A stretch of 64,000 nucleotides of DNA from Nonomuraea cavernae. GTDB lineage: Bacteria; Actinomycetota; Actinomycetes; Streptosporangiales; Streptosporangiaceae. The stretch lies in the NCBI RefSeq assembly GCF_014646355.1, contig NZ_BMNH01000010.1:62001-126000 (forward strand), given 5' to 3'. Below, in pieces: positions 25,044 through 51,623 of the stretch. The position numbers were made by a program, and so were the translations under genes. Below the pieces are notes generated by a model that was not told the DNA's origin, ran no database searches, and saw only the letters and a list, made by a program, of their open reading frames with translations. The stretch's first letter is position 1. Every line of letters starts with the position of its first letter.

Positions 25044-25970
25044 ATGGCGATGTCTCAGACGGAGCTGCTGCACGAGCTGGAGCCCGTGGTGGCAGGGGAG
25101 CTCGACCGTCATCACCAGATGGCCAAGGAGTGGTTCCCGCACGAGTACGTCCCGTGGAGCGAAGGCCGTGACTTCGACGGCTTCTACCAGGGCGAGGCCT
25201 GGCAGGAGAGCGACTCCAAGATTCCCGAGGCCGCTCGTGTCTCGCTCATCGTCAATCTCCTGACCGAGGACAATCTGCCCAGCTACCACCATGAGATCGC
25301 CACGACGTTCGGCCGCGACGGCGCGTGGGGCACGTGGGTGCACCGCTGGACCGCCGAGGAGGACCGGCACGGCACGGCGATCCGCGACTACCTGACCGTG
25401 ACGCGCGCGGTCGACCCCGTCGCGCTGGAGCGGGCCCGCATGACCCACATGGAAGCCGGCTACATCACCGACTACGGGACCATGCTCCAGCAGTTGGCCT
25501 ACGTCTCCTTCCAGGAGCTGGCCACCCGCATCGCGCACCGCAACACCGGCAAGGCCTCGGGCGACGAGGGCTGCGAGCGGCTGCTGGCCCGCATCGCCGC
25601 CGACGAGAACCTGCACATGCTCTTCTACCGCAACCTGCTCAAGGCGGCCTTCGAGCTCGACCCCAACCAGACCATGCGGGCCGTGACCGACGTCGTCACC
25701 ACCTTCCAGATGCCGGGCTCCAGCATCGAGGGCTTCACCCGCAAGGCCATGATCATCGCCCATGAGGGCATCTACGACCTGCGCCTCCACCTCGACGACG
25801 TGCTCATGCCCGTGCTGCGGCAGTGGGCCGTCTTCGACAAGACCGGTCTCGACGCCGAGGGTGAGCGGGCCCGCGAGGAGCTGGCCGCGTTCCTGGCCAA
25901 GACCGAGACCACGGCCGCCAGGTTCGTCGCGCGCAGGGAGGAGCGAAAGGCGCGCGCCGCCCTGCGCTGA
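25044..25970 (+). CDS. Acyl-[ACP] desaturase (DesA-like, soluble di-iron)
   Basis: 308-residue soluble fatty-acid desaturase of the ferritin-like type found in mycobacteria (DesA1/DesA2 class), inserting a double bond into ACP-bound acyl chains with O2 and reduced ferredoxin. Di-iron ligands are visible in LLTEDNLPSYH, TAEEDRHGTAI (EExRH) and AADENLHMLFYRN (DExxH). No membrane segments. ATG at 25044 follows the SD GAAGGAGAGG. A candidate iron box in the promoter suggests iron-dependent control, which is sensible for a di-iron enzyme. Supplies unsaturated fatty acids for membrane lipids (family knowledge). Confidence 0.94.
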   Translation: MAMSQTELLHELEPVVAGELDRHHQMAKEWFPHEYVPWSEGRDFDGFYQGEAWQESDSKIPEAARVSLIVNLLTEDNLPSYHHEIATTFGRDGAWGTWVHRWTAEEDRHGTAIRDYLTVTRAVDPVALERARMTHMEAGYITDYGTMLQQLAYVSFQELATRIAHRNTGKASGDEGCERLLARIAADENLHMLFYRNLLKAAFELDPNQTMRAVTDVVTTFQMPGSSIEGFTRKAMIIAHEGIYDLRLHLDDVLMPVLRQWAVFDKTGLDAEGERAREELAAFLAKTETTAARFVARREERKARAALR

Positions 25971-47571: not shown

Positions 47572-47610
47572 CTGCCCCGCCGTGTCCCTTTCAGGGGTAC
47601 GGCGGGGCAG
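47572..47610 (+). terminator. Strong lon terminator (first copy)
   Basis: Perfect 12-bp outer stem CTGCCCCGCCGT / ACGGCGGGGCAG with an inner CCCT/AGGG stem, 8 bp after the lon stop. Confidence 0.85.
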
Positions 47611-47614
47611 CCGC

Positions 47615-47646
47615 GCCGTGTCCCTTCCAGGGGTACGGCGGGGCAG
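47615..47646 (+). terminator. Second, near-identical terminator copy
   Basis: A 32-bp segment repeats the core of the first hairpin (47579-47610) 36 bp further on with a single base difference; the outer 5' arm is incomplete, leaving GCCGT/ACGGC plus the inner stem. A tandem duplication of terminator DNA. Confidence 0.7.
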
Positions 47647-47710
47647 TCGCATAGATGGACAAATCATTCATCGCTTTGACCGGATGATTCGTTCATGCTT
47701 CTATGAGGGC

Positions 47711-48847
47711 ATGCTCTACGCCACGCCTTCGCTCGACCCCGCCGACCAGGCGGTCCTCGCCGAGATCGAGGACATGCGGCGCGACCTGAAATACCGGCTC
47801 GCCGAGACCCACCGCTGGGACGGCCAGCTGCGCAGGCAGCTGCAGGCGCGCGCGATCCAGGGGTCCAACTCCATCGAGGGCTACCGGGCCAGTGTCGAGG
47901 ACATCGAGTCGATCATGTCGGGGGAGGAGCCGCTGGAGACCTCCGGGTCCGTGGCCCGCGAGATCGCCGGCTACCAGCAGGCCCTGACCTACATCCAGCT
48001 GCTCTCACGGGCTCCGGCGTTCCGCTACGACACGGGGCTGCTCAACGCGCTGAACTTCATGATGATCGGCCACCACCGCGACAAGACTCCGGGCGTGGTG
48101 CGCCCGGGCGGGATCTACATTCGCGACTCCGTGTCCGGCGCGGTGGTCTACGAGGGGCCCGACGCCGATCTGGTGCCAAAGCTGCTGGATGAGCTGATCG
48201 AGTGGCTCAACGACGGTGACCTGGGCGTTCCGAGCTATGTGAGAGCCGCCATGGCGCACCTCAACCTCGTCAAGGTCCACCCCTGGCGAGACGGCAACGG
48301 CCGGATGTCCAGGGCGCTGCAGACGCTCGTCCTGGGCCGGGACCAGATCACAACGCCCGAGTTCTGCTCTATCGAGGAATGGCTCGGTCAGCAACGCACC
48401 ACCATCGCCTACTACGACGTCCTGGGAGAGGTCGGCCGCCGGCAGTGGAGCCCGCATGGCGACACGCTCGCCTGGGTGCGGTTCTGTCTGCGCGCCCATC
48501 ACATGCAGGCCCAGCGCGTACGCCAGCGCCTCGCCGAGGCGGGCGAGATCTGGATGCTCCTGGAGAAGCAGGTCGACTCCGACGGGCTCAACACCAGGAC
48601 GGTGTCGGCGCTGTACGAGGTCTTCGTCACCCGGAGGCTGCGCCGGAGCCGCTATCAGGCCGACGAGTCCCTGAGCCAGGGACAGGCGGCCCGGGACCTG
48701 CGCGACCTGGCCGCCAAGGGATGGCTGTCGCCCTACGGAGAGACCAAGGGCCGTTTCTACGCCCCCGGCCCGCGCATGGTCGAGATCAAGGCGGAGTTCG
48801 CCGGCAGGGCGACCCCCTTGCGCGATCCCTACGTCCAGGCCAGGTGA
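47711..48847 (+). CDS. Fic/DOC-family AMP-transferase (Fic domain protein)
   Basis: 378-residue protein with a central Fic domain: catalytic motif HPWRDGNGRMSR near residues 190-201 (HPFxxGNGRxxR, His as catalytic base). An N-terminal autoinhibitory helix motif (S/T)xxxE(G/N) appears as SNSIEG at residues ~52-57, making it a class II Fic protein kept inactive by its own alpha-inh. The C-terminal part (ALYEVFVTRRLRRSRYQADE, LRDLAAKGWLSPYGETKGRF) looks like a winged helix. ATG at 47711 has SD GAGGG; ATG at 47684 is possible. Likely AMPylates an unknown target. Confidence 0.9.
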   Translation: MLYATPSLDPADQAVLAEIEDMRRDLKYRLAETHRWDGQLRRQLQARAIQGSNSIEGYRASVEDIESIMSGEEPLETSGSVAREIAGYQQALTYIQLLSRAPAFRYDTGLLNALNFMMIGHHRDKTPGVVRPGGIYIRDSVSGAVVYEGPDADLVPKLLDELIEWLNDGDLGVPSYVRAAMAHLNLVKVHPWRDGNGRMSRALQTLVLGRDQITTPEFCSIEEWLGQQRTTIAYYDVLGEVGRRQWSPHGDTLAWVRFCLRAHHMQAQRVRQRLAEAGEIWMLLEKQVDSDGLNTRTVSALYEVFVTRRLRRSRYQADESLSQGQAARDLRDLAAKGWLSPYGETKGRFYAPGPRMVEIKAEFAGRATPLRDPYVQAR

Positions 48848-48904
48848 GCCAGATCACGCCCACTGTCCGGAATAGCGGCAGGTGCGGCGATCGTTAGTAG
48901 GGGC

Positions 48905-49003
48905 GTGAACGAGGCATACGCGAACGACCTGGGCGCCCGTGGCGTCATGTGCTGTCGCATGCGTATGGGGCGAATGTGCGCCATGGGCTGTCAGGCCCGC
49001 TGA
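48905..49003 (+). CDS. Candidate Met/Cys-rich leader peptide upstream of metNIQ
   Basis: 32-codon frame, GTG at 48905 to TGA at 49001-49003. The last 18 residues read MCCRMRMGRMCAMGCQAR, i.e. five Met and four Cys. No SD at the right distance precedes the GTG; a weak -10-like GTTAGT lies 6 nt upstream, so leaderless translation is possible, and an internal ATG at 48947 would give the 18-residue Met/Cys peptide alone. The position before a methionine importer suggests attenuation by sulfur amino acids. Polycysteine leaderless uORFs that act as cysteine attenuators are known in mycobacteria; this one would be a Met/Cys variant. Not proven to be translated. Confidence 0.45.
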   Translation: MNEAYANDLGARGVMCCRMRMGRMCAMGCQAR

Positions 49004-49040
49004 GCGACCCCCGACCCGTTCCTCCTCCGATAGGTCCCCC

Positions 49041-49106
49041 ATGATCACCCCTGTTTTCGTGCTGCGCAGGCTGAGCCATCTGCCCTTCCATCCGGGCACG
49101 CACTGA
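49041..49106 (+). CDS. Second short leader frame (21 codons), weakly supported
   Basis: ATG at 49041 to TGA at 49104-49106 encodes MITPVFVLRRLSHLPFHPGT-H. A weak SD-like ATAGG is about 8 nt upstream. It lies between the Met/Cys frame and metN. It may be chance; included because it could form part of the leader. Confidence 0.2.
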   Translation: MITPVFVLRRLSHLPFHPGTH

Positions 49107-49142
49107 CCTCGTCCGGCTCTCGACGATGGCGTTGTCGGCTTC

Positions 49143-49159
49143 CAGCGGCGTGTCCGCTG
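49143..49159 (+). promoter_or_regulatory. Leader hairpin with alternative partner, before metN
   Basis: CAGCGG (49143-49148) pairs with CCGCTG (49154-49159) across a 5-nt loop. The same CAGCGG can instead pair with CCGCTG at 48997-49002, the end of the Met/Cys leader frame, so translation of that frame could decide which stem forms. A TTTTT run lies at 49173-49177, just before the GTG of metN. Structures are inferred by eye. Confidence 0.4.
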
Positions 49160-49178
49160 TCATAAATGGGGATTTTTC

Positions 49179-50129
49179 GTGATCCAGGCATCCGGCCTGC
49201 ACAAGTCGTACGGCGAAACCGTCGCTCTTGACGGCGTCGACCTGCACGTACGCGAAGGCGAGATCTACGGCGTGCTCGGCCGGAGCGGCGCGGGCAAGAG
49301 CACCCTGCTGCGCTGCGTCAACCTGCTCGAACGGCCCGGCCGCGGCACGGTCACCGTGGCCGGGCAGGAGCTGACCGCGCTGCGCAGCGGCGAGCTGAAC
49401 CACGCCCGCCGGCGCATCGGCATGATCCACCAGCACTTCGCGCTGCTGTCCTCGCGCACCGTCGCGGCGAACGTGGCCTTTCCCCTCGAAGTCATGGGCG
49501 TCGCCCGGGCCGAGCGCGAGCGCAGGGTCGCCGAGTTGCTGGACCTCGTGGGTCTCGGCGGACGGGGCGGTGACCGGCCGCACCAGCTGTCCGGCGGTCA
49601 GAAGCAGCGCGTCGGCATCGCCCGGGCGCTCGCCGGCGACCCCGCGGTGCTGCTGTCGGACGAGGCCACCTCGGCGCTCGACCCGGCCACCACCCGGTCG
49701 ATCCTCGACCTGCTCAAGCGGCTCAACGCCGAGCTGGGCCTGACCATCCTGCTGATCACCCACGAGATGAACGTCGTCAAGAGCGTCTGCGACTCGGTCG
49801 CCATCATGGCCGGCGGCCGGATCGAGGAGTCGGGCTCCATCGCCGGCCTGATCAGGACGCCCGGCTCGCGGCTGACCAGGGAGATCTTCCCGCTGCCCGA
49901 GCCGGCTCCGGCGGGTTCGGTGACCCTCACCTTCACCGGCGACCCGCAGCGTCCGGTGGTGTCGGAGGTGGTGCGCGAGTTCGACGTCGAGGTCAGCATT
50001 CTCGGCGGCTCGATCGAGGACCTCGCCGGAGGGGCCGTCGGCCGCCTCCGCGTCGCGCTCACCGGGGAGGCCGCCCCCGCCCTGGCCTACCTGCGCGAGC
50101 GTGGCCTGCTGGTGGAGGTGGCCCGATGA
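49179..50129 (+). CDS. metN: Methionine ABC importer ATP-binding protein
   Basis: 316-residue ATPase of the MetNIQ methionine uptake system. Walker A GRSGAGKST near residue 37, signature LSGGQKQRVGIARALA, Walker B VLLSDEATSALD, H-loop LLITHEMN; the C-terminal NIL/ACT-like regulatory domain (FTGDPQRPVVSEVVREFDVE through VSILGGSIEDLAGGAVGRL) allows trans-inhibition by internal methionine. GTG at 49179 has SD GGGGA. It overlaps metI by 4 bp. The 331-bp upstream leader is unusual and may carry an attenuator. Confidence 0.95.
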   Translation: MIQASGLHKSYGETVALDGVDLHVREGEIYGVLGRSGAGKSTLLRCVNLLERPGRGTVTVAGQELTALRSGELNHARRRIGMIHQHFALLSSRTVAANVAFPLEVMGVARAERERRVAELLDLVGLGGRGGDRPHQLSGGQKQRVGIARALAGDPAVLLSDEATSALDPATTRSILDLLKRLNAELGLTILLITHEMNVVKSVCDSVAIMAGGRIEESGSIAGLIRTPGSRLTREIFPLPEPAPAGSVTLTFTGDPQRPVVSEVVREFDVEVSILGGSIEDLAGGAVGRLRVALTGEAAPALAYLRERGLLVEVAR

Positions 50130-50785
50130 CCTGGGACGAGATGGCGCCCCTGCTGTGGGAGTCGACCTGGCAGACGGCCCTCATGGTCGGCTGGTCCACC
50201 GTGTTCACCGTGCTGTTCGGGCTGCCGATCGGTGTGGCGCTGGTGGTGTTCGACCGGGGCGGGCTGCGGCCCCTCCCGGTGCTGAAGTCCGTGCTGGGCG
50301 TCATCGTGAACGTGGGCCGGTCGCTGCCGTTCATCGTGCTGATGATCGCGATCATCCCGTTCACCCGGCTGGTCGTCGGCACCACCATCGGGACCGCCGC
50401 CGTGGTCGTGCCGCTCACGGTCGGCGCGGTGCCGTTCTTCGCCCGGCTCGTCGAGACCGCCCTGCGTGAAGTGGGCTCGGACGTGGTGCAGGCCGCCCAG
50501 GCCATGGGGGCGAGCCGTACGGCGATCGTCCGGAAGGTGCTGCTGCCCGAGGCGATGCCCGGGCTGGTGGCCGGGCTGACCGTCACGGTCGTCGCGCTCA
50601 TCGGCTACTCGGCGATGGCCGGGACCATCGGCGGGGGAGGGCTGGGCGACCTGGCCGTCAGGTACGGCTACCAGCGGTTCGAGACCCTGCTCATGATCGT
50701 GACCGTGGTGCTGCTGGTCGTGATCGTGCAGCTGATCCAGAGCTTGGGCGACGCGGTCGCCCGGCGTCTATCACACAGTAAGTAA
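50126..50785 (+). CDS. metI: Methionine ABC importer permease
   Basis: 219-residue inner-membrane permease with five or six predicted helices and an EAA loop (QAAQAMGASRTAIVRKVLLP) contacting MetN. The N-terminus MTWDEMAPLLWESTWQTALM is characteristic of MetI. Its ATG overlaps the metN stop by 4 bp; metQ follows after 10 bp, so the three genes form one operon. Confidence 0.95.
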   Translation: MTWDEMAPLLWESTWQTALMVGWSTVFTVLFGLPIGVALVVFDRGGLRPLPVLKSVLGVIVNVGRSLPFIVLMIAIIPFTRLVVGTTIGTAAVVVPLTVGAVPFFARLVETALREVGSDVVQAAQAMGASRTAIVRKVLLPEAMPGLVAGLTVTVVALIGYSAMAGTIGGGGLGDLAVRYGYQRFETLLMIVTVVLLVVIVQLIQSLGDAVARRLSHSK

Positions 50786-50795
50786 AGGAAAAATC

Positions 50796-51623
50796 ATGAA
50801 ACTTCGTGCCATCGCGGGAGTTGTCGCTCTTGCCGTGTCGCTCACCGCGTGCGGGGCGTCGCAGTCCGCCACCGGCGCGCCGGCGGCGGAGTCCGCGGAC
50901 ACCGTGCTCAAGGTGGGCGCCAGCCCGGTACCGCACGCCGAGATCCTCACCTTCGTCAAGAACGACCTCGCCCCGGCCGCCGGGCTCAAGCTTGAGATCG
51001 TCGAGTTCACCGACTACGTGCAGCCGAACGTGCAGCTCGCCGAGGGCGGGCTGGCCGCCAACTTCTTCCAGCACAAGCCCTACCTGGACGACTTCAACGC
51101 CTCCAAGGGCACCGAGCTGAGCTTCGTCACCCCCGTCCACCTGGAGCCGCTCGGCCTCTACTCCAGGAAGGCCGCCGACCTGGCCGCGCTGCCCGAGGGC
51201 GCCACGGTCGCCGTGCCCAATGACGCCACCAACCTGGGCCGTTCGCTCAAGCTGCTCGCCGACAACGGCGTGGTCACCCTGAAGGAGGGGGCCGGCACCT
51301 CGGCGACCGAGCGCGACGTGACCGGCAACCCGAAGAAGCTCGTCTTCAAGCCCCTGGAGGCCGCCCAGCTGCCGCGCTCGCTGGACGACGTCGACGCCGC
51401 GGTGATCAACGGCAACTACGCCATCGAGGCCGGTCTCAAGCCGGCGTCGCAGGCCCTGGCGCTGGAGAAGACCGAGGCCAACCCGTACGTCAACGGGCTG
51501 GTCGTGCCGGCCGGGCACGAGAAGGACGCGAACATCGTGACCCTCGGCAAGCTGCTCCAGGACCCGAAGGTCAAGGAATTCATCCAGCAGAAGTACGAGG
51601 GCTCGGTAATCCCGGCAGAATGA
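50796..51623 (+). CDS. metQ: Methionine-binding lipoprotein (NlpA/MetQ family)
   Basis: 275-residue substrate-binding lipoprotein. Lipobox SLTAC puts the anchored Cys near residue 20; the mature part shows the NlpA signature KVGASPVPHAEILTFVKNDL, GLKLEIVEFTDYVQPNVQLA, and FFQHKPYLDDFNASKGTELS. Substrate may be L- or D-methionine or a derivative. It ends the metNIQ operon; the 135-bp gap to the next gene is AT-rich and holds that gene's promoter. Confidence 0.95.
   Translation: MKLRAIAGVVALAVSLTACGASQSATGAPAAESADTVLKVGASPVPHAEILTFVKNDLAPAAGLKLEIVEFTDYVQPNVQLAEGGLAANFFQHKPYLDDFNASKGTELSFVTPVHLEPLGLYSRKAADLAALPEGATVAVPNDATNLGRSLKLLADNGVVTLKEGAGTSATERDVTGNPKKLVFKPLEAAQLPRSLDDVDAAVINGNYAIEAGLKPASQALALEKTEANPYVNGLVVPAGHEKDANIVTLGKLLQDPKVKEFIQQKYEGSVIPAE

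Follow-up and report, generated by a model that had tools for sequence, protein, structure and literature searches.

The window, a 64,000-nt stretch of contig NZ_BMNH01000010.1 from the 8.12-Mb genome of Nonomuraea cavernae, contains on its plus strand three genes named metN, metI and metQ from their Pfam domains and best NCBIfam matches. metN (49179 to 50129) encodes an ATPase with a NIL domain (Pfam ABC_tran and NIL; best NCBIfam match below the MetN cut-off), metI (50126 to 50785) a permease (BPD_transp_1; over the NCBIfam MetI cut-off) and metQ (50796 to 51623) a lipoprotein (Lipoprotein_9; best NCBIfam match below the MetQ cut-off). A leader of about 330 nt (48848 to 49178) lies between metN and a Fic-family gene (47582 to 48847). 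Close to its end is the metN Shine-Dalgarno sequence TGGGGA (49167 to 49172), of which TGGGG is invariant across 47 aligned leaders. In Nonomuraea and related soil actinobacteria, metNIQ is preceded by two tiny conserved frames and an apparent stress promoter. Elsewhere in the window, Rfam gave a match to ASdes, an sRNA of TB (70.5 bits; 25359 to 25426, minus strand), which overlaps a 308-aa plus-strand ORF (25044 to 25970) and a 562-aa minus-strand ORF.

A DNA search with the leader matched 51 of the 54 genomes of the genus; 50 of these loci were analysed (G034 was left out). A slightly shorter query gave matches in 15 of 150 genomes of the family. The GTDB genus meant here extends slightly beyond Nonomuraea because it takes in Thermoactinospora rubra. 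The 50 genus leaders are mutually related and were collected by similarity to the window leader. Also compared were 22 loci from other named genera (Planobispora, Planomonospora, Streptosporangium, Microtetraspora, Microbispora and Thermoactinospora), among which the Thermoactinospora entry is a repeat of a genus locus (L050).

The first frame, uORF1 (48905 to 49003, plus strand), begins with GTG at 48905 and has 32 codons, with the translation VNEAYANDLGARGVMCCRMRMGRMCAMGCQAR followed by the stop. As described in the initial annotation, five Met and four Cys codons lie within its last 18. Nine of its 31 internal codons specify Met or Cys, where 300 dinucleotide shuffles average 3.9 (p ~0.003). 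Across 42 of the 50 genus loci, uORF1 holds on average 5.62 Met/Cys codons; the two alternative frames hold 2.19 and 0.36 and shuffles 2.20, and enrichment reached p < 0.05 in 35 of the 42; this count omits eight loci with a more diverged start, which were scored by promoter distance instead. By the latter definition uORF1 is present in 50 of 50 genus loci, with at least three Met/Cys codons in 48 and two in each of the exceptions (L040 and L046). Within the body of uORF1 all 31 alignment gaps are multiples of three (32 of 45 leaders aligned), and those in the interval between uORF1 and uORF2 in the same alignment are mostly of 1, 4, 6, 8 and 9 nt.

Outside the genus, a promoter-linked uORF1 was found in 21 of the 22 loci, 19 of which have at least four Met/Cys codons; the locus lacking it (L075) has only ~35 nt of upstream sequence. 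The two low-Met/Cys exceptions are from Microbispora; they have a single Cys and lack internal Met, which genuinely weakens the case for a universal Met sensor. Microbispora excepted, Met/Cys content is maintained although the peptide sequences diverge strongly. The Met/Cys frame of the initial annotation is thus well supported as coding sequence. NCBIfam has no known family for either uORF. The comparison supports uORF1 as a conserved, in-frame Met/Cys-rich leader peptide before metNIQ that is probably leaderless, its fixed distance of 9 to 10 nt from the promoter fitting such a start. In three Microbispora loci (L098, L112 and L177) uORF1 is VSVSNLVNPPERGCPTA, without Met codons, and the promoter, the predicted leaderless uORF1 and uORF2 are all retained.

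Neither a SigR-like promoter nor a second conserved uORF was named in the initial annotation. In the window a -35-like GGAAT (48869 to 48873, plus strand) is followed after 19 nt by a -10-like GTT (48893 to 48895), which ends 9 nt before the start codon of uORF1. GGAAT-N18/19-GTT ends 9 to 10 nt before uORF1 in all 50 genus loci and in 21 of the 22 from other genera, even in loci with an entirely different uORF1 sequence, the sole miss being the truncated L075. Among 20,000 random 75-nt segments drawn from these loci, 287 carried the motif, some of them overlapping the true site. SigR/SigH-type promoters belong to the response to thiol-oxidative stress. Both words and their spacing agree with the consensus sequences of Corynebacterium glutamicum SigH (GGAAT-N18-19-GTT; PMC10012870) and Streptomyces coelicolor SigR (GGAAT-N18-GTT; PMC2375139), the difference being that the promoter here serves a two-uORF leader of metNIQ.

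Two sigma factors of SigR/SigH type that exceed the family cut-off are encoded in the N. cavernae genome (contig 3, 12596 to 13159 and 266027 to 266581). One of them has GGAACA-N18-GTT 9 nt upstream, and trxB has GGAATC-N18-GTT 31 nt upstream; no motif was found in the upstream stretch examined of the other SigR homolog or of a second, below-cut-off TrxB-like gene. A search of the same genome with the extended motif GGAATA-N16-18-CGTT gave five sites versus three for the reversed control and so was not clearly enriched. No sigma-70 promoter was found in the leader. From the placement of the motif we infer SigR dependence of the metNIQ leader. As the GGAAT-GTT promoter is absent from the four loci scored in two of the family's groups (g67 and g37) and from nine scored Streptomyces-like loci, SigR control would be a clade trait. 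In the passages and term counts consulted of two related papers, metN is not named. In addition, a palindrome, GTGA-N6-TCAC (48844 to 48857, plus strand), occurs within 75 nt 5' of uORF1 in all 46 genus leaders scored; it is CRP-like and a possible site for a CRP-type or other activator.

The second frame, uORF2 (49041 to 49106, plus strand; MITPVFVLRRLSHLPFHPGTH), is preceded by a Shine-Dalgarno-like GATAGG (49029 to 49034), which in relatives is mostly CGAAGG. Both uORF2 and, by a loose pattern, the Shine-Dalgarno-like word are present in 50 of 50 genus loci. Variation follows the reading frame: summed over the 15 codons of the core, entropy at the first, second and third codon positions was 2.06, 2.55 and 7.12 bits in 47 DNA-selected leaders, and 2.8, 2.1 and 10.7 in 53 distinct cores, which were partly selected by amino-acid pattern. 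The distinct codon variants comprise 18 synonymous and 17 non-synonymous changes, where 39 and 96 would be expected from random single changes. The peptides have 18 to 24 residues and a variable N-terminus, and they are not hydrophobic over their full length. Their C-terminal pattern is [LFI][ST]HxP[FY][HP]PG, two codons and stop, with H, P, P and G invariant in a 20-row alignment. PG, two codons and a stop form the end in 74 of 79 distinct copies; the remaining five, of Microtetraspora type, have no stop after PGTR and are extended by 17 to 18 codons into metN. In these loci (L073, L088, L095, L118 and L169) the uORF2 stop and the metN start overlap by 4 nt. Eight of ten loci in the distant groups g67 and g37 have a shorter relative of uORF2, for example MIFVLHLLSHAPYPPGTC; its end is retained there as LLSHAPYPPG. 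The sequence PPG is that of classical polyproline stalling; the window copy has HPG instead.

A degenerate uORF2 pattern run against 84,980 species genomes matched 60 stretches, 59 of them, by their titles, from Streptosporangiaceae and one from a metagenome-assembled genome labelled Cytophagaceae. In 58 of the 60, metN is 47 to 128 nt downstream or overlaps by 4 nt, the overlap being found in four Microtetraspora. Of the two without metN, one (L074) ends before the gene would be reached, and the Cytophagaceae-labelled match (L117) has none and was taken as chance. With a profile built from 20 copies, 15 of 394 genomes of the class matched at E 4.2e-8 or better, and all 15 matches adjoin metN and come from the same family. 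The next match had an E of 0.0015, and weaker matches were taken as noise without individual inspection.

The comparison itself establishes, at the level of sequence, two conserved coding frames and a promoter motif at a fixed distance from the first. That uORF1 and uORF2 are both coding seems to us almost certain, and they very probably regulate metNIQ in cis. The conserved C-terminus of uORF2, its fixed distance from PG to stop and its location hint that the nascent chain has a function.

A Met/Cys leader of metNIQ is already known. A 2021 report on Streptomyces lividans TK24 describes metL (SLIV_29928; MSTTSDRTPATEATTTPGARCMCRRMCAF) as a leaderless, Met-containing leader peptide of metNIQ with no typical Rho-independent terminator (PMC8079986), and because of this the novelty claimed for such a leader in the initial annotation fails. 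Both metL, so far as described there, and uORF1 are short Met/Cys-containing peptides 5' of metNIQ, leaderless in S. lividans and predicted to be so here, and both leaders lack a typical Rho-independent terminator; the uORF1 sequence differs from that of metL (PMC8079986). By eye only, the two share a Cys-Arg-Met-rich C-terminus. Like other MetL-type leaders, uORF1 is a short ORF immediately 5' of metNIQ with over-represented codons for the regulated amino acid (L040, L046 and Microbispora excepted), and it is probably a relative of metL that works in the same way. In ten Streptomyces-like leaders examined (family f18, L146 to L155), no uORF2 was found and the SigR-type promoter was present in none of the nine scored. 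A conserved hairpin, CTCGCGCCCCGAAGCGAG, lies between the metL-like uORF and metN in these leaders. Neither uORF was found in a further group of the family (g46, L139 to L144), whose last ~150 nt before metN hold a conserved block of their own, CGTACGCTC..GTGGGCGTC..CCCACGCTGAG, possibly a different leader element.

Mycobacterial leaderless cysteine-rich uORFs contain clusters of Cys and stand before cysA2 and other genes (PMC4633059). Common to these and uORF1 are a leaderless uORF (predicted here), codons for sulfur amino acids and sulfur genes downstream; the differences are the mixture of Met and Cys and the target, metNIQ. For uORF2 the nearest comparison is with the arrest peptides ApcA, ending in RAPG, and ApdA and ApdP, ending in RAPP. 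These have 80 to 200 residues and a targeting signal and are encoded before yidC/secDF, ApcA and ApdA being actinobacterial (PMC7897499). They have in common with uORF2, whose arrest is hypothetical, a conserved Pro/Gly C-terminus, in their case close to the site of arrest, and a position 5' of the regulated gene. In contrast, uORF2 is far shorter and lacks a signal, and it contains neither RAPG nor RAPP (PMC7897499). No description of uORF2, or of any second uORF before metN, was found in the open-access PMC literature. uORF2 seems to be undescribed, and the Met/Cys leader is of a known kind.

These features may be combined in a model of a two-peptide control region of metNIQ, for which, taken as a whole, the chances seem to us about even. 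Under thiol-oxidative stress the SigR/SigH-type promoter would give a transcript starting at or next to the uORF1 GTG, which would therefore be translated leaderlessly. Progress of the ribosome through the C-terminal Met/Cys codons would depend on charged Met- and Cys-tRNA, and we infer that uORF1 senses in this manner. uORF2, with its own Shine-Dalgarno sequence, would then be translated, and its conserved peptide would slow or arrest the ribosome near the end of the frame or, at a minimum, uORF2 would keep the RNA occupied by ribosomes as far as the metN region. This step would set the amount of metNIQ mRNA finished or translated. Control would be exerted through translation-dependent events, of the Rho type or at the level of translation, with no intrinsic terminator; the Rho or coupling step is our hypothesis. 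Ribosome arrest by uORF2 is plausible, though we rate it somewhat short of even. The most specific form of the proposal, in which uORF2 is a new metabolite-sensing arrest peptide (for Met, SAM or a thiol signal) placed after a tRNA-sensing uORF1 and a SigR-type promoter, and brings oxidative stress, the charging of tRNA and sensing by the nascent chain together on one 330-nt metNIQ leader, is put forward tentatively, as a possibility rather on the unlikely side.

Classical attenuation, in which the position of the ribosome on uORF1 chooses between competing stems and a T5 terminator, was the mechanism proposed in the initial annotation. The arms are indeed where it placed them, with CCGCTG at 48997 to 49002 and 49154 to 49159, CAGCGG at 49143 to 49148 and TTTTT at 49173 to 49177. 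The hairpin CAGCGG-CGTGT-CCGCTG (49143 to 49159, plus strand) lies before the metN ribosome-binding site, and a stem at this place is common in genus loci: one of at least 5 bp occurs between uORF2 and metN in 42 of 50, and one of at least 6 bp in 28 of 50 compared with 115 of 500 shuffles. This stem may matter, and most copies have no T-run behind it. However, a competing arm of at least 6 nt was found in only one of the 37 leaders (out of 50) in which it could be scored, that of the window itself, an approximate count since in some loci the best stem chosen by the script differs from the metN-proximal one. The TTTTT lies between the metN Shine-Dalgarno sequence and the start codon, T5 is present in only 7 of 50 leaders, and no intrinsic terminator or terminator-like site was found in the leader. 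The predicted fold of the window leader is no better than that of its shuffles (z +1.63). RNAalifold gave double changes in 1 of 36 pairs with 32 leaders and in 0 of 8 with 47, and a scan of all helices in 42 leaders found 95, against 90 to 94 in six row permutations, with no excess of double changes; the compensatory stem changes looked for across relatives are thus not above the null. A further complementarity, CATACGC/GCGTATG inside uORF1, was rejected since by eye it is broken in several diverged leaders. Mutually exclusive stems with a T-tailed terminator are not supported for this leader, and we regard attenuation of this type as improbable. The initial annotation had itself warned that such short arms may arise by chance, and competition between them does not go beyond chance; of its interpretation the conserved Met/Cys leader peptide stands, the choice of CCGCTG arms and the T5 terminator are unsupported, and the novelty fails. 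Its reading that no SAM riboswitch signature is visible also holds: an Rfam scan of the window at gathering scores was blank in the leader, a relaxed scan of the leader gave only a chance microRNA match, and no curated family of SAM or other known riboswitches was matched. Least probable of all is that the conserved block 49056 to 49106 is an RNA element rather than a peptide. The codons CTG CGC are invariant across all 53 distinct cores and a GCAGG/CCTGC hairpin is possible in the window and most genus leaders, but synonymous Arg changes break this hairpin in L045, L047 and L049 with the peptide unchanged, changes fall mainly at third codon positions, and both Rfam match and covariation are absent.

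Two further alternatives accept uORF2 as a translated frame. It might be a mere translational relay near metN, acting by coupling, reinitiation or Rho protection with no peptide arrest. The extended uORF2 of Microtetraspora, overlapping the metN start, has the classical arrangement for coupling, one also described for mycobacterial small ORFs (PMC4633059). Elsewhere, however, the uORF2 stop is 47 to 128 nt before metN, compared with a reinitiation limit of roughly 12 nt given in PMC4833913, and a relay would have no need of a peptide conserved residue by residue; we consider it possible and, on balance, rather unlikely. The same residue-level conservation, together with the fact that every strong copy adjoins metNIQ, could instead point to a small protein acting in trans, with the MetNIQ transporter as one conceivable target. 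Against this are its length of only 18 to 24 residues, its variable N-terminus and a hydrophobicity that does not extend over the whole peptide, and we think such a role quite improbable, a little more so than attenuation.

To our knowledge, Met leader peptides have barely been studied, and the mechanism of S. lividans metL is not known. The loci compared here provide about seventy aligned natural variants of a compact two-uORF leader whose second peptide is strongly conserved. Should uORF2 indeed arrest on methionine or SAM, sulfur metabolism would have an arrest peptide that senses a small molecule. If the proposed two-peptide model is correct, methionine uptake would be linked to a thiol-stress sigma factor in Streptosporangiaceae.
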